From positions 1 through 64,000 of the forward strand of contig JAJXWP010000001.1 in assembly GCA_021781575.1 (NCBI GenBank): 64,000 nt of DNA, given 5' to 3'. Of the stretch, positions 15,059-29,869 are shown in pieces. The translations under genes and the position numbers were made by a program. How positions within the stretch are numbered: the stretch's first letter is position 1; each line of letters begins with the position of its first letter. The DNA is from Pseudomonadota bacterium (GTDB lineage: Bacteria; Pseudomonadota; Alphaproteobacteria; Rhodospirillales; Magnetospirillaceae). The notes beneath the pieces were generated by a model that saw nothing but the letters and a program-made list of their open reading frames with translations, was not told where the DNA came from and did no database searches.

Positions 15059-15760
15059 TTGTCCCAGACCATCGCCCTGGTTGACGACGACCGCAACATC
15101 CTGACTTCGATTTCCATCGCTCTGGAAGCCGAAGGATTCCGCGTCCGCACCTATACGGACGGGGCCGACGCCCTGCGCGGCATCACCGCCCAGCCGGTGG
15201 AGCTGGTCGTCCTCGACATCAAGATGCCGCGCATGGACGGCATGGAGCTGCTGCAGCGGCTGCGCAAGAACTCGTCGGTGCCGGTCATCTTCCTGACCTC
15301 GAAGGATGACGAAGTGGACGAGGTGCTGGGCTTGCGCATGGGGGCCGACGACTACATCAAGAAGCCGTTCTCCCAGCGCTTGCTGATCGAGCGCATCCGG
15401 GCTCTCCTGCGCCGCGGGGAACTGGCGCGCGAGACCGGCGATACGGCGAATTCGCAAGCGGTGGCACGCGGCGACCTGGTCCTCGACCCGGTCCGTCACG
15501 CCTGCACCTGGAAAGGGCTTCCGGTGGATCTGACGGTGACAGAGTTCCTCATCCTGAAGTCGCTGGCCATCCGCCCCGGTCATGTGAAGAATCGCGACCA
15601 GTTGATCGATGCCGCCTATGGCGAGCATATCTATGTGGATGACCGTACCATCGACAGTCACATCAAGCGGCTGCGCAAGAAATTCCGCGATGTCGACTCG
15701 GAGTTCGGCCATATTGAAACGCTTTATGGCGTAGGCTATCGCTACCGCGAAGACCAGTGA
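15059..15760 (+). CDS. chvI: ChvI-family response regulator
   Basis: 233 residues beginning at TTG, with GGAG 8 bases upstream. The receiver domain has the acidic pair D10-D11 and the phosphorylation Asp53 in [10 protein letters not shown], plus the conserved Lys in IKKPF. The C-terminal OmpR/PhoB winged helix ends with [12 protein letters not shown]. It overlaps the GTG start of the sensor kinase gene. ChvI homologues control envelope, exopolysaccharide and acid responses in alphaproteobacteria; the HPr kinase gene downstream supports the assignment. Confidence 0.95.
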
Positions 15761-17436
15761 CCGACCAGGCGCCCGTCCAGCCCTCCCTCCGCCCCCGCCC
15801 CGGCCCACAACCGCTGCAGCCTCGTCGTCGGCGTCGCTGGCTGCCGTTGGCTTCGCCGCTGACCCGGCGCATCCTGGCGGTCAACATGCTGGCCCCGGTG
15901 ATCCTGGTGGCGGGACTGTTCTACCTCGACCGCTACAAGAACGAGCTGATTGCCGCCGAGTTGGAATCCTTGCGCATCCGTGCCGAGATGGTGGCGGCGG
16001 CGGTGGGCGAGGGGGCGGTGCTCGACAACGGCATGGCCTTGCCTGAACTGTCCAGGCAGATGGCCCGCCAGATGGTGCGCCGGCTGTCGCCGCCCGCGCG
16101 GGTGCGCACCCGCCTGTTCGACGACGACGGGACCGAACTGGCCGACAGCCGGATGCTGTTGTCGTCCAACATGCCGATCCAGGTCGAGGAGCTGCCGCCG
16201 CCCGAGGAAGGCTGGTTCGCCAAGGCGTTCCGCGGGATCTACGATTTCGTCACGGCCACCGGCATGGGCGAGGAGAACTATCCGCGCTACCGCGAACGCA
16301 GCCACCCGCGCGCCGGCGACTATGCGGAAGTGGTCAAGGCGCTGGCCGGCGACGCCGCCTGGGCGGTGCGCAGCACCCCCGATCACCGGCTGCTGCTGAC
16401 CACCGCCGTGCCGGTACAGCATTACAAGGAAGTGCTGGGCGCGGTCATGGTGTCGTCGACCGGCGACGACATCGCCCAAAGCCTGTTCAAGGTGCGACTG
16501 ACCATTTTCCAGGCCTTCGCTTTCGCCCTGGCGATCACCTTCGCCCTGTCGCTATACCTGTCCGGCACCATCGCACGGCCAATCTACCGCCTGGCCGCCG
16601 CCGCCGACCGGGTACAGCGCGGTCACGGGCGCCGCCATAATATTCCCGATCTGACCCGGCGCCGTGACGAGATCGGCGACCTGTCGGCGGCCCTGCGCGA
16701 CATGACCGAAGCGCTGTGGCGCCGCATGGACGCCATCGAAGCTTTCGCCGCCGACGTCGCCCACGAGATCAAGAACCCGCTGACCTCATTGCGCAGCGCC
16801 GTCGAGACGGTGTCCAGGGTGCAGAACCCCGAGCATCAGCGCAAACTGATGGCCATCATCCAAGATGACGTCACCCGCCTCGACCGGCTGATCAGCGACA
16901 TTTCCGACGCCTCGCGGCTCGACGCCGAATTGTCGCGGGCAGAGGCAGGCCCGGTGTCGATGCGGCGCATGCTGGAAGCGCTGGTGGCGGTCTACCGCGA
17001 TACCGGAGTGGCCGAGACGGTACGGTTCGTCGTCCAGGCCGACGCCAAGGACGAGCTGGAAGTCGCCGGTCTGGAAGGACGGCTGGGACAGGTGCTGCAC
17101 AACCTCATCACCAACGCCGTGTCGTTCAGCCCACCGGAGGGGACGATCACGCTGAAAGCCTGGCGCAGCGGCAACGCGGTGGTGATAGACGTCGACGATG
17201 AGGGGCCAGGCATACCACCCAACAAGCTGGATGCGATTTTCGAACGCTTCTATTCCGAACGACCGAAGGACGAGAAGTTCGGTACCCATTCGGGCCTGGG
17301 GCTGTCCATATCCAAGCAGATCGCCGAAGCGCACGGCGGCAGCCTCAGGGCCGCCAACCGGACCGATGCCGAGGGTCAGGTGATCGGTGCCCGGTTCACC
17401 CTGAAGCTACCGGCGGCAGAGAGTGCGGCCACCTGA
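15757..17436 (+). CDS. chvG: ChvG-family sensor histidine kinase
   Basis: 559 residues starting at GTG, overlapping chvI by 4 bases. There is a Pro/Arg-rich cytosolic N-tail, a first membrane helix ([20 protein letters not shown]), a periplasmic stimulus-sensing domain, and a second helix near residue 250 ([15 protein letters not shown]). HAMP, HisKA with His336 in [10 protein letters not shown], and HATPase motifs ([36 protein letters not shown]) follow. It phosphorylates ChvI in response to envelope or pH signals, as known for the family. Confidence 0.95.
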
Positions 17437-17569
17437 TTCAATCACTTGGTGGGCAGTTGGCGGGCCGCCTTGCGCAGACACCCTGGAAATCAGGCGCCGG
17501 CACGGATCACCGAAAGGGGTACCGGCGAGGACCGTTGACTCATAACCGCCGCCGCTCCACTTTGGACAG

Positions 17570-18004
17570 ATGATTCGGTTGCATGGCACCTGCGTTCTGG
17601 TGGCGGAAGTGGGGGTGTTGCTGCGCGGTCCACCCGGCGCCGGCAAATCGGATTTGGCGTTGCGTCTGATCGACGGCGGAGCGGAACTGGTGGCTGACGA
17701 TCAGGTGGAGATCGACCAGCGCGGCGAGCAGCTGATCGCCGGGCCGCCGAGCGCCATCGCCGGCCTGCTGGAGGTGCGTGGCTTCGGCATTGTCCGTCTG
17801 GCCTATCGGGCGCCGGTGCCGCTCGGGTTGGTGATCGATCTGGCGCCGGCCTCGACCATCGAGCGGATGCCGGAACCGGAGGTGGTGGACTTGCTGGGCC
17901 ATTCCTTGCCGCACCTCGCCTTGGACGCCAGGGAACCATCGGCCGCCGCCAAGGTTCGCCTCGCCCTACGGGCTCAGACCGGAGCTGTTATGCGACTGCG
18001 ATGA
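17570..18004 (+). CDS. hprK: HPr kinase/phosphorylase, short alphaproteobacterial form
   Basis: 144 residues, equal to only the C-terminal catalytic domain of the Gram-positive enzyme, as is normal in alphaproteobacteria. The P-loop GPPGAGKSD (Lys26) is followed by the ADDQVEI metal/base region. It is predicted to phosphorylate HPr on its regulatory serine. Its stop overlaps the start of rapZ. A 133-base gap separates it from chvG. Confidence 0.93.
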   Translation: MIRLHGTCVLVAEVGVLLRGPPGAGKSDLALRLIDGGAELVADDQVEIDQRGEQLIAGPPSAIAGLLEVRGFGIVRLAYRAPVPLGLVIDLAPASTIERMPEPEVVDLLGHSLPHLALDAREPSAAAKVRLALRAQTGAVMRLR

Positions 18005-18951
18005 TGACCGATGCTTCCCGCGACACGCCCGGGCCGACCGACGGCGATGATGCCGGAGGAGGGGACGATTCGGGGCGCGCCGCCGCTCCGCCCGGCAAGG
18101 TCGTCCTGATCACCGGCATGTCCGGGGCGGGTAAGACCTTAGCCCTGAAGGCCCTTGAGGACCTGGGCTACGAGGCGGTCGACAACCTGCCGCTATCCTT
18201 GCTCGGCCTGTTGCTCCGCCCCGGTGAAACGAACCGCCCGCTGACCATCGGCATCGACATCCGGACCCGCGGCTTCGGCGTCGCCAGCATGCTGGCGGAG
18301 ATGGACCGTCTGATGCAGGGACGCCGCCTGGACATGCGCCTCCTGTTCGTCGATTGCGACGACGAGGCCCTGGGTCGCCGCTATACCGAGACCAGGCGGC
18401 GCCATCCCCTGGCGACCGACCGCCCGCTGATCGACGGCATCCGTCACGAGCGCGAACTGGTTTCGCCGCTCAAGGCCCGTGCCGACATAGTGGTCGACAC
18501 CACGTCGCTGCCGCCGGGCGAGCTGAAACGCTTCCTGGCGGGCCATTTCCGTCTGGAGGCCAAGCCATCGCTGGTGGTGTTCGTCACCTCCTTCTCCTAT
18601 CGACGCGGCCTGCCGCGCGAGGCCGATTTGGTTTTCGACTCGCGCTTCCTGGCCAATCCGCATTACGTTGCGGAATTGCGCCCGTTGAGTGGCCGCGATC
18701 GCAGGGTCGCCGACTATGTTGAAGGCGACCCCGGTTTCGGGCAGTTCTTCGGAGCGTTGACGGCTTTACTCGAGCCGTTGCTGCCACGTTTTACCGCCGA
18801 GGGAAAAAGCTACCTGACCATCGCCGTCGGCTGCACAGGGGGAAGACACCGGTCGGTCGTCATCGCCGAAAAACTTGCGCAATGGATGCGCGACCACGGC
18901 CAGGCCGTCGACTTGCGGCACCGCGAGCTGGAAGAGGGGGAAATGAAGTGA
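18001..18951 (+). CDS. rapZ: RapZ/YvcJ-family nucleotide-binding adapter
   Basis: 316 residues; the start is ATG at 18001 or 18004. An acidic, low-complexity N-terminus of ~30 residues precedes a Walker A GMSGAGKT (Lys45) and the family hallmark DLGYEAVDNLP. The C-terminal domain contains LTIAVGCTGGRHRSV, the RapZ phosphate-binding loop. In enterobacteria RapZ adapts RNase E to a small RNA controlling glucosamine-6-phosphate synthesis. Here it lies inside the PTS-Ntr operon. Confidence 0.94.
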   Translation: MMTDASRDTPGPTDGDDAGGGDDSGRAAAPPGKVVLITGMSGAGKTLALKALEDLGYEAVDNLPLSLLGLLLRPGETNRPLTIGIDIRTRGFGVASMLAEMDRLMQGRRLDMRLLFVDCDDEALGRRYTETRRRHPLATDRPLIDGIRHERELVSPLKARADIVVDTTSLPPGELKRFLAGHFRLEAKPSLVVFVTSFSYRRGLPREADLVFDSRFLANPHYVAELRPLSGRDRRVADYVEGDPGFGQFFGALTALLEPLLPRFTAEGKSYLTIAVGCTGGRHRSVVIAEKLAQWMRDHGQAVDLRHRELEEGEMK

Positions 18952-18961
18952 AGGCCGACCA

Positions 18962-19369
18962 ATGATAGGAATGGTCCTAGTTACCCATGGCCGTCTGGCC
19001 GATGAGCTGGTGGCGGCACTCGAACATGTGGTTGGGCCGCAGCCGAATGTCGCCACCGTCTGCATCGGTCCTGACGACGACATGGAACAGCGGCGGTTCG
19101 ATATTCTGCAATCCACCTCCAAGGTCGACGACGGCTCCGGGGTCGTCGTGCTGACCGACATGTTCGGCGGTACGCCGTCCAACCTCGCCATCTCCATCAT
19201 GGATAAGGCCAAGGTCGAAGTCATCGCCGGGGTCAACCTGCCGATGTTGATCAAACTGGCCAGCGTCCGCCACCACGAACGTTTGGCCGAGGCGGTGGCC
19301 AGCGCCCAGGAAGCCGGGCGCAAATATATCAATGTGGCGTCCCGCCTTTTGACCCAAGACAATCCGTAG
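18962..19369 (+). CDS. PTS EIIA component, mannose family
   Basis: 135 residues. The phosphorylated histidine is His9 in LVTHG, and the domain continues with LTDMFGGTPSN, both hallmarks of EIIA-Man. No EIIB or EIIC transporter components follow, so this is the regulatory EIIA of the alphaproteobacterial PTS-Ntr-type chain. It sits between rapZ and the HPr gene. In related bacteria it receives phosphate from HPr. Confidence 0.94.
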   Translation: MIGMVLVTHGRLADELVAALEHVVGPQPNVATVCIGPDDDMEQRRFDILQSTSKVDDGSGVVVLTDMFGGTPSNLAISIMDKAKVEVIAGVNLPMLIKLASVRHHERLAEAVASAQEAGRKYINVASRLLTQDNP

Positions 19370-19396
19370 TCTGGATTTTGCAGTTGGAATTCGCAT

Positions 19397-19717
19397 ATGG
19401 ACGTGCCAGCCGAACCCTCCTCCCAAGCCGACGCTTCCGCCGGAGACGACTTCGTCAGCCGTAGCGCCACCATCGCCAACCGCCGCGGGCTGCACGCCCG
19501 CGCCGCCGCCAAGTTCGTCAAGCTGGCCGGCCAGTTCGACGCCCAGGTCGTCGTGTCGAAACGGGGAACCGAAGTCTCCGGCCTGTCGATCATGGGATTG
19601 ATGATGCTGGCGGCTGGCCCCGGCTGCACCATCGAACTGCGAGGCAGGGGGGCGGAGGCGAATGCCGCGCTGCAGGCTTTGGTCGCCCTGATCGAAGCGA
19701 AATTCGACGAAGACTGA
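19397..19717 (+). CDS. ptsH: Phosphocarrier protein HPr
   Basis: 106 residues, with about 18 extra N-terminal residues compared with E. coli HPr. The catalytic His33 lies in RRGLHARAAA. Ser64, 31 residues later in EVSGLSIMGL, matches the Ser46 target of HPr kinase, which is encoded three genes upstream. It carries phosphate from EI to the EIIA proteins. It is 7 bases ahead of the EI gene. Confidence 0.95.
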   Translation: MDVPAEPSSQADASAGDDFVSRSATIANRRGLHARAAAKFVKLAGQFDAQVVVSKRGTEVSGLSIMGLMMLAAGPGCTIELRGRGAEANAALQALVALIEAKFDED

Positions 19718-19724
19718 AGGACCC

Positions 19725-21527
19725 ATGATCATCGAGCCGGGCCAACAGACCAACGAATTCGCCGCCGGAACCGAGGAGAGGGTATTCGACGGCCTGGGTG
19801 TCAGCCCCGGAGTCGCCATCGGCTGCTCCCATCTGCACGATGCCGGTTGCGTCAATGTGCCCGAGTTCCGCCTGGCCAAGGAACAGGTGGAGGCGGAAAA
19901 GACCCGTTTCACCGAAGCGGTGGCCGCCGCCAGCGCGCAAATCGGCAAGCTGCAGCAAAAAGCCCGCGGACTGCCGGCTTCGACCGGCGAGGAGCTGGGC
20001 TATCTGCTTGACGCCTATCAGCAGATGCTGAAAGGCTCGCGCCTGGTGCGCGGGGTCGAGCGGCGCATCGGGGAAGACCGGCTGAATGCCGAGGCCGCGG
20101 TGCAGCAGGAAATCACGCAGATCGTCCAGGGCTTCGCCTCGATGGATGACGCCTATCTGTCGGCGCGCATGGAGGATATCCGCGAGGTCGGCCGCCGCCT
20201 GGTGCGCAACCTGACCAAGGTTCCCTACCGGCCGTTCTCCAACCTGCCGAAGAACACGGTGATCCTGGCCGAGGAACTGACCCCGGCCGACACGGCGCTG
20301 CTCGATCCGGCCAATGTCGCCGGTTTCGCCACGGTGTTGGGCGGCACGGCCAGCCACACCGCCATCATGGCCCGCTCGCTGGGACTGCCCGCCGTGGTCG
20401 GCATGGCCGGCATGCTGACCGGGCGACGCGGCGGCCAGCAGGTCATTATCGACGGCAGCGCCGGCAAGGTGATTCTCAGCCCAAGTCCGGCGACCGTCGC
20501 CTACTACCGCCGGAAGCGGGCCGAATTCCTGCGCCAGCGCCGCCAGTTGCAACGCCTGCGCAAGATCCCGGCGGTGACGCTCGACGGCGCCGAGGTCACC
20601 CTGCAGGCAAATCTTGAACTGCCGGCGGAGATCGACAGCGTCCTGGCGTCCGGGGCCCAGGGCGTCGGGCTGCTGCGCACCGAATTCCTGTACATGAACC
20701 GCGACGACCTGCCGACCGAGGACGAGCAGTATGTTGTGCTCAGCACCCTGATCCAGCGGTTGGGCGGGCGCAGCCTGACCATCCGCACGCTGGATGCCGG
20801 CGGCGACAAGATCGCACCGGCCTTGGGCATCGTCGAAGGACCCAACCCTGCCCTAGGCCTCAGGGCCATCCGGCTGGCACTGAAGCGCCCCGAGATCCTG
20901 GAGACGCAACTGGCCGCCATCCTGCGGGCGGGAGCCCACGGCCCGGTCCGCATCCTGATCCCCATGGTCACCTCGGTCAGCGAGTTGCTGGCCGTCCGCG
21001 GCATCCTGGAAACGGTTGAGCGGCGCCTGAAGCGCCGGCACATCGCCTATGCGCTGCCGCTGCCGCCCGTCGGCACCATGATCGAGGTGCCGGGAGCGGC
21101 CCTGGCCGCCGATGCGCTCGCTTGGCACTCGGATTTCTTCGCCATCGGCACCAACGACCTGACCCAATACACCCTGGCCATCGACCGCGCCGACGAAGCC
21201 GTATCGTCTCTGTACGATCCGCTGCATCCGGCGGTGCTGCGGCTGGTCCAATTTGCCACCGAAGCGGCGCTCAGGGCCCGCATCGCGGTCAGCGTGTGCG
21301 GCGAGGTCGCCGGCGACCCGCGCTATACCGCGCTGCTGCTGGGACTGGGAATTCGCGACCTGTCGATGGCGGCGGCGAGCCTGCCGGTGGTCAAGCAGCG
21401 GATCCGCAGCCTCGACCTGGTAGCGGCGACCAGACGCGCCCGGGTCATCATGGACCAGTCCGATTCGGCGCGTATCGCCCAGTTGTTGGACGACTTCAAC
21501 GGCAGCGTGATGGACGAAGCCATCTGA
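19725..21527 (+). CDS. PEP-protein phosphotransferase (PTS enzyme I)
   Basis: 600 residues. The phospho-histidine is His211 in [12 protein letters not shown]. The C-terminal PEP-binding barrel includes [29 protein letters not shown] and [13 protein letters not shown]. There is no N-terminal GAF domain, unlike the PtsP (EI-Ntr) form of about 750 residues, so the length resembles classical PtsI. As no sugar permease is near, it probably feeds the regulatory chain HPr to EIIA-Man/EIIA-Ntr. Confidence 0.94.
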
Positions 21528-21595
21528 CGGGCAGGTTGTCTCCGCCGGCCATGGCTGCTATACGCCCTTTAATTTTCCAAGCCTGGAGCGCATTC

Positions 21596-22888
21596 ATGAC
21601 TTTTGCCGATTGCAAGGTGGCCGACCTGTCGCTGGCCGATTGGGGCCGCAAGGAAATCCGCATCGCTGAAACCGAGATGCCGGGACTGATGGCGCTCCGC
21701 CAGGAATTCGGCAGTGCCAAGCCGCTGTCCGGGGCGCGTATCGCCGGCTGCCTGCACATGACCATCCAGACCGCCGTGCTGATCGAGACGCTGGTGGCGC
21801 TGGGCGCCACGGTTCGGTGGAGTTCCTGCAACATCTTCTCGACCCAGGACCAGGCCGCCGCCGCCATCGCCGCCGCGGGCATTCCGGTTTTTGCCTGGAA
21901 GGGCGAGACGGAAGAGGAATTCTGGTGGTGCATCGAGCAGACCCTGCGCGGTCCCGACGGCTGGACGCCCAACATGATCCTCGACGACGGCGGCGACCTG
22001 ACCGCCATCATGCATGATAAGCATCCCGATTTGTTGAAGGCAGTTCGCGGTATCTCCGAAGAAACCACCACCGGCGTGCACCGCCTTTACGAGATGGCCA
22101 AGACCGGCCGTCTCATGGTGCCGGCCATCAATGTCAACGATTCGGTGACCAAGTCGAAGTTCGACAATCTCTATGGCTGCCGCGAGTCGCTGGTCGACGG
22201 CATCAAGCGGGCCACCGATGTGATGGTCGCCGGCAAGGTTGCCGTGGTCTGTGGCTTCGGCGATGTCGGCAAGGGCTCGGCGGCTTCCCTGCGCAGCCAG
22301 GGAGCGCGGGTGATGGTCACCGAGATCGATCCCATCTGCGCCCTTCAGGCGGCGATGGAAGGCTATCAGGTGACCACCATGGAAGATGCGGCGCCTGCAG
22401 GCGACATCTTCGTCACCTGCACCGGCAATGTGGACGTCATCACCATCGACCACATGCGGGCGATGAAGGACCGTGCCATCGTCTGCAACATCGGCCATTT
22501 CGACTCCGAGATCCAGATCGCCTCATTGCGGAACTACAAATGGCACAACGTCAAGCCGCAGGTCGACGAGGTGGAGTTCCCCGACGGCAGGCGCCTGATC
22601 GTGCTGGCGGAAGGCCGCCTGGTCAACCTGGGCTGTGCCACCGGCCATCCCAGCTTCGTCATGTCGGCCAGCTTTACCAACCAGGTGCTGGCGCAGATCG
22701 AGCTGTGGAAGCACGCCGAAAACTACGAGCGGCAAGTCTATGTGCTGCCCAAACATCTGGATGAGAAAGTGGCCCGCCTACACCTCGACAAGATCGGCGC
22801 CAAGCTGACGAAGCTGTCGCCCAAACAGGCAGAATATATCGGCGTCAAGGTCGAAGGCCCGTTCAAGGCGGAAGCCTACCGGTATTAA
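21596..22888 (+). CDS. ahcY: S-adenosylhomocysteinase
   Basis: 430 residues from ATG 21596, with GGAG 8 bases before. It hydrolyses S-adenosylhomocysteine to adenosine and homocysteine, sustaining methylation. Motifs include [13 protein letters not shown], the NAD-binding loop [11 protein letters not shown] and the C-terminal [23 protein letters not shown] with PFKAEAYRY as terminus. An open frame runs 158 codons upstream through the EI gene but is not part of the protein. No room exists for an SAH riboswitch in the 68-base leader. Confidence 0.97.
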
Positions 22889-22904: not shown

Positions 22905-22927
22905 ATGCCCGAATCAAGTTCGGGCAT
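22905..22927. repeat. Palindrome after ahcY
   Basis: ATGCCCGAA / TTCGGGCAT form a perfect 9-bp stem with a 5-base loop, 17 bases past the ahcY stop. It resembles the dispersed GATGCCCG...CGGGCATGACG palindromes common in proteobacterial genomes, and it could stop ahcY transcription. Confidence 0.5.
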
Positions 22928-22952
22928 GACGGCATTATTGTTTGGCGTCATT

Positions 22953-22969
22953 GCCGGGCTTGACCCGGC
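22953..22969. repeat. Second palindrome (GCCGGG/CCCGGC) between ahcY and divL
   Basis: The stretch GTCATTGCCGGGCTTGACCC is the well-known intergenic proteobacterial palindrome type; GCCGGG pairs with CCCGGC across a 5-base loop. It lies 25 bases after the previous palindrome, giving a tandem pair. Confidence 0.45.
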
Positions 22970-23040: not shown

Positions 23041-25545
23041 ATGCGGGGAATTCGGGTAAAGGCCGCCGCCGCGGCCATGGCAGGGCTGGTTACGTCGCCG
23101 GCGCTTGCCCAGGCCAGCGAGCAGCGTGCGGACGATCCGACCGGTCTGGCTATCGGCGCGGTGCTGCTGGTCGGGCTGATCTTCCTGCCCATCGTCTTGT
23201 GGCTGCGGAGCCAGTTGCGCCAAGCGGTGGACGAGGCATTGCGCCTCGACGCCGAACGGGCCCGCTTGGCCGAGGTGCTGGCGGCCGCTCCTGATGGCTT
23301 CTATCGCTGGGACCTGACCGCCGAGGGCGACGTGGCGGCCGAACACTGTTCGCGCCGGCTGGCCGTCCTGCTCGGTCTTTACGGCGGCACCGAAGCCGTC
23401 TACGCCGACGTCCTGGAGAGCTTCGGGATATCCGAAGCGGCCGTTCTGGAAGTGGCGGTGGCGGCGCTGCGCCGTCAGGGGACCGGCTTCGAACTGGAAC
23501 TTGCCTTGCGCGACGGCCACCGCCGGGTTCTGGTAGTCGGCAGCCGGGCCGCCGACGCGGAAGGCCGCCCGCTGGCCGACGTGTTGTGGATGCGCGACGT
23601 CACCGAGGGCGCGGCAGCGGTTGAAAGCCTGTCGCATGAGCGCCGCGATCTGGGCGCCGAGCGCGATCGCCTTCGCGCCCTGCTGGATGCCTTGCCGGCA
23701 CCGATCTGGTTGCGCGACGGTGATCTAGCCCTGGTCTATTGCAACCAGGCCTACGCCCGTGCCGTCGATGCCCCCTCGCCGGCGGAAGCGACGGAGGCGG
23801 GCAGCGAACTGGTGGCCGGCAACTCCGTGCGCGAGGCTCGCGCCCTGGCCGCCCGGGCGCGGGCGTCCGGACTGCCGCGCAGCGAGTCGTTCCATCTGGT
23901 GATGGCCGGAGCGCGCCGCTTGATGGAATTGACCGAGGCGCCGTTCACCACCGGCGGCGATGACGGCAGGCACACCGTCGGCCTGGCCATCGACCGTACC
24001 CGGCAGGAGGAATTGCAAAGCCAGATCGACCGCCATGTCGCGGCCCATGCCGAGGTACTGGAAAACCTTGGCACCGCCATCGCCATCTTCGCCACCGATA
24101 CCCGGCTTTCCTTCTTCAACACCGCCTTTTCCATGCTTTGGCGACTCGATGCCGAATGGCTGGCGACGGGGCCGACCTACGGCAATGTCCTCGACGCCCT
24201 GCGCGAGCACCGGCGCCTGCCTGAAGTGGCCGATTACCGCGCCTCCAAGGAGGAGGAGCTGCGTCGCTTCACCTCGCTCCTGGAATCGCGCGAGGATCTT
24301 CTGCATTTGCCGGATGAGCGGACCTTGCGCCGTGTCGTCTCGGCCCATCCCTTCGGCGGCCTGCTGTTCACCTACGAGGACGTGACCGATGCCTTGGCCC
24401 TAGAGCGTTCGCACAAGACCTCGCTGGCCGTGCACCGCGAAACTTTGGACAATCTGCACGAGGGCGTCGCCGTGTTCTCCTCCGACGGGCGGCTGCGCCT
24501 GTCCAATCCGGCCTATGGGCGGATCTGGGACCTGTCGCCCGAGGAACTGGGCGGCGATCCCCATATCGGCGAGTTGATCGAGCGCCACCATGACTTTTTC
24601 GCCACCGCGGCGGATTGGCCGGCGGTCCAGGCCAGCATGCTGGCGCTATTCTCCGACCGCGTGCCGCGCCACGGCCGCATTGAACGCTCGGATGGCGCCA
24701 TCCTCGACTATGCTTCGGTACCGCTACCCGATGGCGCTGTGCTGACCACCTGGCTCGACGTCAGCGATTCCGCCCGTGTGGAAAGAGCGTTGCGTGAGCG
24801 GAACGACGCGTTGGCCGCCGCTGATCGGCTGAAAAGCGAGTTCATCGCCAATGTCAGCGCCGAGGTGCGCACGCCGCTGACCACCATCCTCGGTTTCTCC
24901 GAAATGCTCGGCCACGACTATTTCGGCAAGCTCAACAAGCGCCAGCAGGATTACGCCCGCGGCATCACCGACGCCGGCCAGTATCTGTTGCAGGTGCTGT
25001 CCGACATCCTCGACCTGGCCACCATCGAGGCCGGCCAGATGACCCTGTCTTTGAACGCGGTCGATGTCCACACCATGCTGGCCGGTGTCCTGCGGCTGAC
25101 CCGGGAGCGGCTGCGGGAGAAATATCTGGTGCTGAACTTCGACTGCCCGCTCGACATCGGCTGGATGGTGGCCGACGAGCGGCGGATCCGCCAGGTCCTG
25201 TTCAACCTGTTGTCCAACGCCGTTAAATTCACCCCGCCGCACGGCCAGATCACCCTGGCTTGCCAGCGCGCCGTGAACGGCAGCGGTGAGGAGATCCTGT
25301 TCACCGTCGCCGATACCGGCCGGGGCATCGCCGCCGAGGAGCAGGAGCGGGTATTCGGCAGCTTCGTTCGCGACCAGCGCCAGGAATCCCGTCAGAGCGG
25401 CGCAGGCCTGGGGTTGTCGCTGGTAAAAAGCTTCGTCGAGTTGCATGGCGGCCGCGTCGAGGTGGCCTCAGCACCGGGCGAGGGCACCACCTTCACCCTC
25501 CACCTTCCGGCGGGCAGCGAAGCGGAAAGCCTGAAGCTGGCGTAA
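23041..25545 (+). CDS. divL: DivL-like multi-PAS histidine-kinase family protein with Ala at the phospho-acceptor site
   Basis: 835 residues from ATG 23041 (a TTG at 22942 is less likely). A signal-anchor and one membrane helix (about 36-56) are followed by a coiled region and several PAS-like segments, then HisKA and HATPase. The HisKA box reads F601-I-A-N-V-S-A607-E-V-R-T-P-L, so the phosphorylatable His is Ala. HATPase motifs remain (NLLSNAVKFTP, DTGRGIA, GAGLGLSLVKS). Caulobacter DivL, a cell-cycle regulator that binds rather than phosphorylates partners, has Tyr there. Position after ahcY, with tsaE next in related genomes, supports DivL. The Ala is read directly from GCC at 24859-24861. 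Confidence 0.85.
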   Translation: MRGIRVKAAAAAMAGLVTSPALAQASEQRADDPTGLAIGAVLLVGLIFLPIVLWLRSQLRQAVDEALRLDAERARLAEVLAAAPDGFYRWDLTAEGDVAAEHCSRRLAVLLGLYGGTEAVYADVLESFGISEAAVLEVAVAALRRQGTGFELELALRDGHRRVLVVGSRAADAEGRPLADVLWMRDVTEGAAAVESLSHERRDLGAERDRLRALLDALPAPIWLRDGDLALVYCNQAYARAVDAPSPAEATEAGSELVAGNSVREARALAARARASGLPRSESFHLVMAGARRLMELTEAPFTTGGDDGRHTVGLAIDRTRQEELQSQIDRHVAAHAEVLENLGTAIAIFATDTRLSFFNTAFSMLWRLDAEWLATGPTYGNVLDALREHRRLPEVADYRASKEEELRRFTSLLESREDLLHLPDERTLRRVVSAHPFGGLLFTYEDVTDALALERSHKTSLAVHRETLDNLHEGVAVFSSDGRLRLSNPAYGRIWDLSPEELGGDPHIGELIERHHDFFATAADWPAVQASMLALFSDRVPRHGRIERSDGAILDYASVPLPDGAVLTTWLDVSDSARVERALRERNDALAAADRLKSEFIANVSAEVRTPLTTILGFSEMLGHDYFGKLNKRQQDYARGITDAGQYLLQVLSDILDLATIEAGQMTLSLNAVDVHTMLAGVLRLTRERLREKYLVLNFDCPLDIGWMVADERRIRQVLFNLLSNAVKFTPPHGQITLACQRAVNGSGEEILFTVADTGRGIAAEEQERVFGSFVRDQRQESRQSGAGLGLSLVKSFVELHGGRVEVASAPGEGTTFTLHLPAGSEAESLKLA

Positions 25546-25910: not shown

Positions 25911-27050
25911 ATGCCCGATGGTCGAACTACGGCGAAGCGAAGCCCGGCAACGGCGCGCCTGAGCCCCCGCGTCCCTATCCCCCCGTCCGAGACACAATCC
26001 GGCTGCGCTGCTGACGCCCTCGCCGCCGACAGGCCCCGCCGAAGCCTGAACCTGGCCCTGCAAGGCGGCGGCAGCCATGGCGCCTTCACCTGGGGCGTCC
26101 TCGATCGCTTGCTCGAAGAGGACGGCATCGAGATCGAAGGCATCAGCGGCACCTCGGCCGGAGCGATGAACGCCGCCGTAGTGGCCCAGGGAATGGCCAT
26201 CGGCGGCCGCGAGGAGGCCCGACGCCTGCTCGGCGCGTTCTGGGACCGGGTCGGCCAAGCGGCCGAATGGAACCCGGTCCGCCGTTCACCCTTCGACATG
26301 CTGATGGGCAGATGGAACATCGACGCCTCGCCGGCTGCCATGGTGGCCGACCTCGCTCATCGCGTGGCCTCGCCTTACCAGTTCAATCCGATGAATCTCA
26401 GCCCGTTGCGCGACGTCCTGGAGACGGTCATCGACACCGACCACATCCGCCACAGCCCGGTGAAGCTGTTCGTCTCCGCCACCAACGTGCGCACCGGCCG
26501 TATCCGCGTATTCGACCACAACGACGTGTCGATCGACGCCCTGCTGGCGTCCGCCTGCCTGCCTTCCCTGTTCCAGGCCGTCGAAATCGACGGCGACCCC
26601 CATTGGGATGGCGGCTACATCGGCAACCCGGCCTTGTGGCCAATGATTTACGGCTGCGAGAGCGCGGACATCGTCATCGTCCAGATCAACCCGCTCATCC
26701 GCGAAGGAACGCCCAGGACGGCGGTCGATATCGTCAATCGCCTGAACGAGATCAGCTTCAACTCGTCGCTGATGAATGAAATGCGGGCCATCTCCTTCGT
26801 CGAGAACCTGATCGCTCAAGACCACCTCAATGGTTCGTCCGCCGAGCGATACAAGAAGATGCACATCCACCGCATCCACGCCGAGGAAGAGATGCGCTCC
26901 CTCGGAGCCACCTCCAAGCTGAACGCCGAGCGCGCCTTTCTCCTGCACCTCCATGGTGTCGGGCGCTCCGCCGCCGACCAGTGGTTGAAGGCACACGGGC
27001 AGGAAATCGGGCGTAAATCCACCGTCGACATCCGTTCCACCTACCTCTGA
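25911..27050 (+). CDS. Patatin-like phospholipase
   Basis: 379 residues. After a ~45-residue Ser/Pro/Arg-rich N-terminus comes the patatin core: oxyanion loop QGGGSHGAF, nucleophile GTSAG (Ser82), and the dyad Asp in HWDGGYIG. Such proteins hydrolyse acyl esters; members encoded beside 3-hydroxybutyrate dehydrogenase are often linked to polyhydroxybutyrate granule turnover. The following genes, acetoacetate decarboxylase (13 bases later) and 3-hydroxybutyrate dehydrogenase, support that link. Whether it attacks PHB or membrane lipid is not shown. Confidence 0.9.
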   Translation: MPDGRTTAKRSPATARLSPRVPIPPSETQSGCAADALAADRPRRSLNLALQGGGSHGAFTWGVLDRLLEEDGIEIEGISGTSAGAMNAAVVAQGMAIGGREEARRLLGAFWDRVGQAAEWNPVRRSPFDMLMGRWNIDASPAAMVADLAHRVASPYQFNPMNLSPLRDVLETVIDTDHIRHSPVKLFVSATNVRTGRIRVFDHNDVSIDALLASACLPSLFQAVEIDGDPHWDGGYIGNPALWPMIYGCESADIVIVQINPLIREGTPRTAVDIVNRLNEISFNSSLMNEMRAISFVENLIAQDHLNGSSAERYKKMHIHRIHAEEEMRSLGATSKLNAERAFLLHLHGVGRSAADQWLKAHGQEIGRKSTVDIRSTYL

Positions 27051-28652: not shown

Positions 28653-28735
28653 GCGTCATTTGGGCGATGGCAGGCCTGCAAGGGCCCGCCGCCGCCGATC
28701 AATCAAACGGCGTTTTGCTTAGCAAGATCCGCCGC

Positions 28736-29761
28736 TCATACCGGCACGCCGCTGGCCGTCGAGTGCTCGAAATGCAGTGCCTGGCCGGGGCGGGCCACGG
28801 CAAAGGCGGCCTGGGCGGCCATCGCCGCCTCGGAAAAGCCCTGCAGGATCAGTTTCAGCTTGCCCGGATAGCCGGCGACGTCGCCGATGGCGAAGATGCC
28901 CTTGAGGTTGGTCGCCAGGGTCGCCGGCTCGACGGTGATCAGCGGCCCGTTCATCACCAGCCCCCACTGGGCGATGGGACCCAAGTCGCTGGCCAGGCCG
29001 AAGAACGGCAGCAATACGTCGGCCGGCAGGCGCCGGATCTGGCCATCGACCGTGGCCACCTCGACCGCCGTCAGCTGCCCGGCTTCTCCCTCAAGGCTTT
29101 GCAGCTGATAGGGAATGACCAGCTCGATCGCCCCCTGCTCGGCCATCGCCTTCAACCGGGCCTCGGAGTCCGGAGCGGCGCGGAATTTCTGCCGACGATG
29201 CACCACCATAACCCTGGCGGCCAGATCGGCCAGGGAAATGGCCCAGTCCACCGCCGAATCACCGCCGCCGGCGATGACCACGCGCTTGTCGCGCAGGTCC
29301 TCGCGCCGCTGGACCAGATAGAAGACGCTCTTGCCCTCGTAGCGGTGGAGGTCGGGCAGCGGTGGGCGGTTGGGGCCGAAGGCTCCGGCCCCGGCGGCGA
29401 TCACCACCACCGGTGCCACCAGCCCCTGGCCGTTCGACAGACCGATCTCCCATCGGCCGTCCGGCAGACGCAGCAGCGACTCAACCTTGACCCCCATATG
29501 GTAGTAAGGCTTGAACGGCTCGGCCTGCTCGGCCAGGCGCTCCACCAGATCCGCGGCAAGGACGCGCGGAAAACCGGGGATGTCGTAGATGGGCTTTTCC
29601 GGGTAGAGGGCGGTGAGCTGGCCGCCGATCACCTCGAGAGCATCCACCACATGACAGGACAGACGCAGCATGCCCAACTGGAACACGGAGAACAGGCCCG
29701 CCGGGCCGGCACCGATGATGACGGCATCGGTTTCATACCGCGCTTCAGGCGAAACGGTCAT
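28736..29761 (-). CDS. Ferredoxin-NADP+ reductase, thioredoxin-reductase-like type
   Basis: 341 residues. The FAD loop is IIGAGPAGLFSVFQLG and the pyridine nucleotide loop is VIAGGGDSAVDWA. The hallmark GGQLTALYPEKPIYDIPGFP identifies the YumC/TrxR-like FNR family, which lacks the CxxC of thioredoxin reductase. It supplies or draws electrons from ferredoxin, or reduces flavodoxin or haem oxygenase partners. It converges on bdhA and is divergent from tsaE. Confidence 0.93.
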   Translation of the reverse strand: MTVSPEARYETDAVIIGAGPAGLFSVFQLGMLRLSCHVVDALEVIGGQLTALYPEKPIYDIPGFPRVLAADLVERLAEQAEPFKPYYHMGVKVESLLRLPDGRWEIGLSNGQGLVAPVVVIAAGAGAFGPNRPPLPDLHRYEGKSVFYLVQRREDLRDKRVVIAGGGDSAVDWAISLADLAARVMVVHRRQKFRAAPDSEARLKAMAEQGAIELVIPYQLQSLEGEAGQLTAVEVATVDGQIRRLPADVLLPFFGLASDLGPIAQWGLVMNGPLITVEPATLATNLKGIFAIGDVAGYPGKLKLILQGFSEAAMAAQAAFAVARPGQALHFEHSTASGVPV

Positions 29762-29869
29762 GCGGCAAGTCCTTCATCGACTGGTTACGGTTTGCGCCCA
29801 CAATGGCCATAGCAGGGCGTGGAATCAACCCGCGTTGCGCCATCTCCCGGGCCGGGATAAAAGCAATTC

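Follow-up and report, generated by a model that had tools for sequence, protein, structure and literature searches.

An alanine-bearing DivL orthologue in a Magnetospirillaceae genome and the family-wide loss of its phospho-acceptor

A gene with the build of a sensor histidine kinase and alanine at the position of the phospho-acceptor raises the question of whether its product is a sequencing artefact, a decaying remnant, an unusual enzyme or a regulator. The gene was located at 23041-25545 on the forward strand of the window (the whole stretch of 64,000 nucleotides that was analysed, from a genome of the family Magnetospirillaceae), where the frame was open over 834 amino acids with the stop codon within these coordinates. 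The upstream extension of the frame was also open, with a TTG at 22942; the start codon is thus uncertain, and residue 607 is unaffected. Pfam analysis revealed a PAS region at residues 210-581 (23668-24783, +), composed of one PAS domain (210-318) and two PAS_7 stretches, followed by HisKA/DHp at residues 598-665 (24832-25035, +) and HATPase_c at residues 712-824 (25174-25512, +). This order of several PAS domains before HisKA and HATPase_c is the one expected of DivL. A helix was predicted at residues 34-81 (23140-23283, +) with a hydrophobic stretch, judged by eye, that resembles a membrane-spanning segment, and we infer membrane insertion of this helix. Predicted secondary structure suggests an additional PAS-like fold at residues of about 84-186.

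The H box of the protein was FIANVSAEVRTP, in which alanine occupies position 607 where histidine kinases carry histidine. Alignment to the Caulobacter DivL structure 4q20 placed this residue, encoded by GCC at 24859-24861 (+), at the position of Caulobacter Tyr550. The phosphorylatable histidine of an active kinase is absent, and the observation of the initial annotation that the acceptor is neither histidine nor tyrosine was confirmed. Its statement that the ATP-binding motifs are kept also stands, as all six ATP-site residues checked were present (N726, D758, G760, G762, G787 and G789), covering the N, G1 and G2 boxes. An AlphaFold model built with 45 orthologues had a mean pLDDT of 85.4, with values below 50 only at residues 1-33 and in the ATP-lid region 774-786, and placed Ala607 within a long DHp helix (575-624). 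The pTM of the model was low (0.41), so the modelled arrangement of domains is unreliable.

The assignment to DivL was examined by reciprocal sequence searches. The top solved structure for the window protein was Caulobacter DivL 4q20 (166 bits; runner-up 129), and in the reverse search, run with the Caulobacter DivL kinase region alone, the window gene ranked first in its genome (167 bits; runner-up 124). A paralogous kinase other than DivL could be ruled out by these two results. In the Foldseek ranking by E-value, 4q20 came no higher than 13th, and long multi-domain sensor proteins stood above it, which indicates that the structure search alone is not specific for DivL; at 38%, its sequence identity was the highest in the best 50 Foldseek rows. 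No DivL model was present among the NCBIfam matches listed, all of which were under the cut-off. Gene order provided a further line of evidence. The frame of ahcY, encoding S-adenosylhomocysteine hydrolase (AdoHcyase Pfam match; 21122-22888, +), opens at a TTG, with the real start probably later, and ends 152 nt before divL. The gene preceded divL in the same orientation in 74 of 123 sequences from the class and in 11 of 35 from the family, several loci having too little flank to judge; the argument from gene order made initially therefore holds. The window gene is accordingly assigned to divL on sequence grounds. Tyrosine at the acceptor, a usual mark of DivL, is lacking, which is compatible with membership because the literature already counts an alanine-bearing DivL. 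The non-histidine acceptor, another such mark, is present in the window protein as Ala607; it is not universal in the set treated here as DivL, since 14 of 181 tree rows carried histidine.

Several other features were observed around the locus. Between ahcY and divL, an imperfect inverted repeat (22909-22968) has 26-nt arms that are 73% complementary; a 23-nt part (22947-22969) occurred in 10 genome copies at up to two mismatches compared to none in the reversed control, and the repeat is a dispersed palindromic element. Downstream of divL, a patatin-like phospholipase frame (25911-27050) showed weak similarity to CBASS phospholipase effectors, far under the NCBIfam cut-off, and a 381-amino-acid frame (28667-29812) had no Pfam or NCBIfam match. 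Upstream lie PTS enzyme I (19725-21527), an HPr-kinase-like frame recognised by eye (17570-18004) and a sensor kinase (15757-17436), which we take to be ChvG-like from its gene order. This upstream run (15757-21527) resembles the order in other alphaproteobacteria.

If Ala607 were a sequencing error or a strain-specific mutation of an ordinary histidine- or tyrosine-bearing DivL, close relatives should carry one of these residues. The family set comprised 37 genomes including that of the window, and 35 yielded a DivL; the two without a match were G016, a genome of 0.9 Mb, and G025, which is 80% complete. The acceptor in the 35 orthologues was Ala in 30, Cys in four and Val in one, with Tyr or His in none. 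When L073 and L074 were added, the codons of the 37 sequences were GCC (29), GCG (2), GCT (1), TGC (4) and GTC (1). Separate genomes and three alanine codons thus refute the error or mutation account, in favour of which nothing was found and whose probability is negligible. The named relatives in the family were Telmatospirillum, Magnetospirillum, Phaeospirillum and Terasakiella; the Magnetospirillum and Phaeospirillum loci L075 and L074 fell in the same clade as the window DivL and carried alanine. In a 181-row FastTree, from which eleven duplicates had been removed beforehand, the family formed one clade of 37 rows with a support of 99. It likewise formed one clade of 35 rows in a 68-row IQ-TREE (SH-aLRT 100), with no Tyr or His within it, after L181, L061, L062, L197, L085, L050 and L042 had been dropped as long-branched, degraded or duplicate. 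By sequence, the loss of the phospho-acceptor is family-wide.

An alanine at this position is not itself new. Childers et al. (2014, PMC4211667) described the tyrosine as conserved across DivL homologues, Magnetospirillum magneticum being the exception with an alanine that cannot be phosphorylated. The present finding widens this single-species exception to a whole family. Compared with this published description, the window genome belongs to a Telmatospirillum-like branch, its DivL has retained Arg610 and Thr611, and divL is preceded by ahcY. Nor is the novelty implied by the initial annotation supported by the data on Caulobacter DivL, for which PMC4211667 reports neither kinase nor phosphatase activity, binding to phosphorylated DivK (DivK~P), and essential functions that are independent of a phosphorylated DHp domain. 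The Caulobacter protein (Tyr550; 4q20) is the best-scoring solved relative and shares with the window protein the PAS and DHp-CA pseudokinase build. The equivalents of its docking-surface residues Arg553 and Ala601 are Arg610 and Ala660; the window protein differs in Ala for Tyr550 and in Phe619 for Tyr562, a tyrosine that is usual elsewhere.

The retained ATP site could also be read as that of a cryptic kinase, in which ATP is still bound and the phosphate goes to another residue or another protein. Besides the kept boxes, this reading draws on the Caulobacter Y550H variant, which gains autophosphorylation stimulated by DivK~P and indicates that such CA domains are still capable of catalysis (PMC4211667). 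However, the wild-type Caulobacter protein is described in the same source as having no autokinase activity and as binding an ATP analogue weakly, with all of its boxes kept, so that the motifs of the window protein are not proof of ATP use. No alternative acceptor was identified in the window protein, short of a systematic search, and a cryptic kinase is considered very unlikely.

The partners of DivL were examined in the window genome. A single ChpT was detected with PF10090 (67.5 bits; cut-off 22.9); of the 14 control genomes, only Caulobacter gave a match to this model. CtrA was identified at 66% identity and 327 bits, with the next match at 147 bits. DivK had 64% identity to Caulobacter DivK, the DivK structure 1m5t as its best PDB match, and a conserved Asp53. 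A CckA-like hybrid kinase could be found through its HDFNN motif, and its best PDB matches were 5idj and the CckA structure 5idm. The co-occurrence of divL with a CckA-like kinase, ChpT, CtrA and DivK was thus observed. Across the family, DivK, scored as present at a cut-off of at least 50% identity to Caulobacter DivK chosen by us (G020 and G043 were weaker and scored absent), occurred in 31 of the 35 genomes with DivL; the four below the cut-off are draft genomes in which gaps are possible. Glu9, Asp10, Asp53, Thr83 and Lys105 were kept in all 44 DivK loci read (50 genomes were positive), which implies that DivK can still be phosphorylated where DivL has no acceptor.

These data also bear on the possibility of a decaying remnant, in which the DHp-CA part would be losing function in the family and Ala607 would reflect drift toward a short, PAS-only DivL. 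Such short forms exist elsewhere in the class, where 7 of 123 sequences had no DHp-CA part. The short DivL of Rhodobacterales (PMC9430884, PMC2877005) is likewise described as a DivL without phosphotransfer function; it lacks the DHp-CA part, whereas that of the window DivL is complete. Within the family, three members (G030, G010 and G007) had lost at least three of the six ATP-site residues, and one residue was lost in six others. A degraded CA part was more common without DivK (4/8 vs 5/47; Fisher p 0.019; 55 family and order genomes) in a weak test uncorrected for relatedness or genome completeness, a trend that fits the link reported between DivK and the kinase part of DivL (PMC2877005, PMC4211667). 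Against a remnant, the window protein keeps all six ATP-site residues, as do 26 of the 35 family members; Glu608 and Pro612, which lie beside the acceptor, are invariant in 35/35, and DivK is retained in most of the family as counted above. We regard a decaying remnant as improbable, though less so than a cryptic kinase.

The window protein is most probably a pseudokinase that is anchored in the membrane, carries several PAS domains and an intact DHp-CA fold, and lacks a phosphate-taking residue; it would act as a sensor or scaffold for DivK~P and tune CckA. This reading joins its sequence to the analogy with Caulobacter, and we hold it with good confidence. By that analogy, phosphorylated DivK would dock on the DHp surface, with a conformational shift in both the DHp-CA and the PAS parts; DivL would cease, by way of its PAS region, to promote the kinase activity of CckA, and CtrA~P would fall through ChpT. 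DivL would in this way read the phosphate of a response regulator rather than write one. The non-phosphorylating regulatory role suggested by the initial annotation is therefore backed by the sequence or by the Caulobacter literature (PMC4211667), and its interpretation as a whole is partly supported.

The Discussion of PMC4211667 puts forward a contact of Tyr550 with the site at which DivK is phosphorylated, a bend that Tyr550 imposes on the DHp helix, and a switch role for Arg553. The same paper finds R553A to be harmful in Caulobacter DivL. With Ala607, a contact of the Tyr550 type with the DivK phosphorylation site is impossible, while the kept Arg610 leaves a switch of the Arg553 type possible. 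The read-out in the family would then rest on other parts of the docking surface (e.g. Arg610 and Ala660) and on the PAS domains, not on a tyrosine hydroxyl. As the acceptor is lost family-wide and DivK is kept in 31/35, the proposed trigger between Tyr550 and phosphate cannot work in the family. Arg610 was kept in 24 of 35 members and replaced by Ala, as in Caulobacter R553A, in seven, and position 611 was Thr in 16 and Lys in 16. Together with the four genomes in which DivK is missing, these substitutions mean that the read-out of DivK~P may not hold family-wide. Seven loci (L030, L031, L033, L034, L035, L036 and L038), representing all six genomes of genus code g5 and G014, had Ala at the Arg553 equivalent and Lys at the Thr554 equivalent, with DivK present. 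To judge by their residues, these seven members would either read DivK~P otherwise or no longer read it.

Outside the family the acceptor varied further. The rest of the order, excluding genomes with partial matches (G051 and G056), contributed 21 sequences with 8 Tyr, 7 His, 3 Phe, and one each of Ala, Gly and Arg. The class search gave a match in 221 of 387 genomes and none in 166. From the listed matches, 123 sequences of 122 genomes outside the order were chosen for family spread, not randomly; the acceptor was Tyr in 98, His in 4, Phe in 3, Thr in 2 and Leu in 2 (one Leu coming from the tail of a short DivL that was misaligned); Lys, Ser, Gly, Arg, Gln and Cys occurred once each, and eight sequences, mostly short DivLs, had no residue at the site. 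Nine of the 14 His rows kept all six ATP-site residues, and five had ahcY upstream. These nine histidine-bearing DivLs (L082, L084, L048, L051, L055, L058 and L062 among the order or named sequences, and L159 and L177 from the class) were scattered among Tyr rows on the trees.

Topology tests were conducted on groups picked after viewing the first tree, some His rows being long-branched. In the 68-row tree, a topology uniting all nine His rows was rejected (p-AU 3e-70), and the minimum number of changes between His and the rest was 8. Forcing the family Ala and Val rows together, apart from the Cys rows, was also rejected (p-AU 7e-6); this form was used in place of a one-clade test of Ala rows only, which was discarded as confounded by a Val row nested inside. 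Ala and Cys have thus changed on more than one occasion, in a direction that unrooted counts do not give. As far as these alignments and trees indicate, the acceptor site is unstable in the order, with His in several separate lineages. A broader proposal can be put forward tentatively: that family DivL senses DivK~P with only Ala, Cys or Val at the proposed site of phosphate contact, so that the Tyr550 trigger is not general, and that across the order the site has switched among Tyr, His, Phe, Ala and Cys, His having been regained more than once. We consider this combination possible and rather doubtful.

No report of a family-wide acceptor loss or of histidine-bearing DivLs was found in searches of open-licence papers, most of which were screened by listing. 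What is added to published knowledge is the family-wide loss with DivK kept and the unstable acceptor site in the surrounding order, and the description of a conserved tyrosine with one exception understates the diversity of the DivL acceptor. Natural DivLs that have no acceptor in genomes that retain DivK make it possible to test, without engineered mutants, whether Tyr550 takes part in reading DivK~P as proposed. The histidine-bearing DivLs are, from their residues, candidates for regained activity, and if the tentative proposal is true, some natural DivLs would be conditional kinases through the regained histidine.
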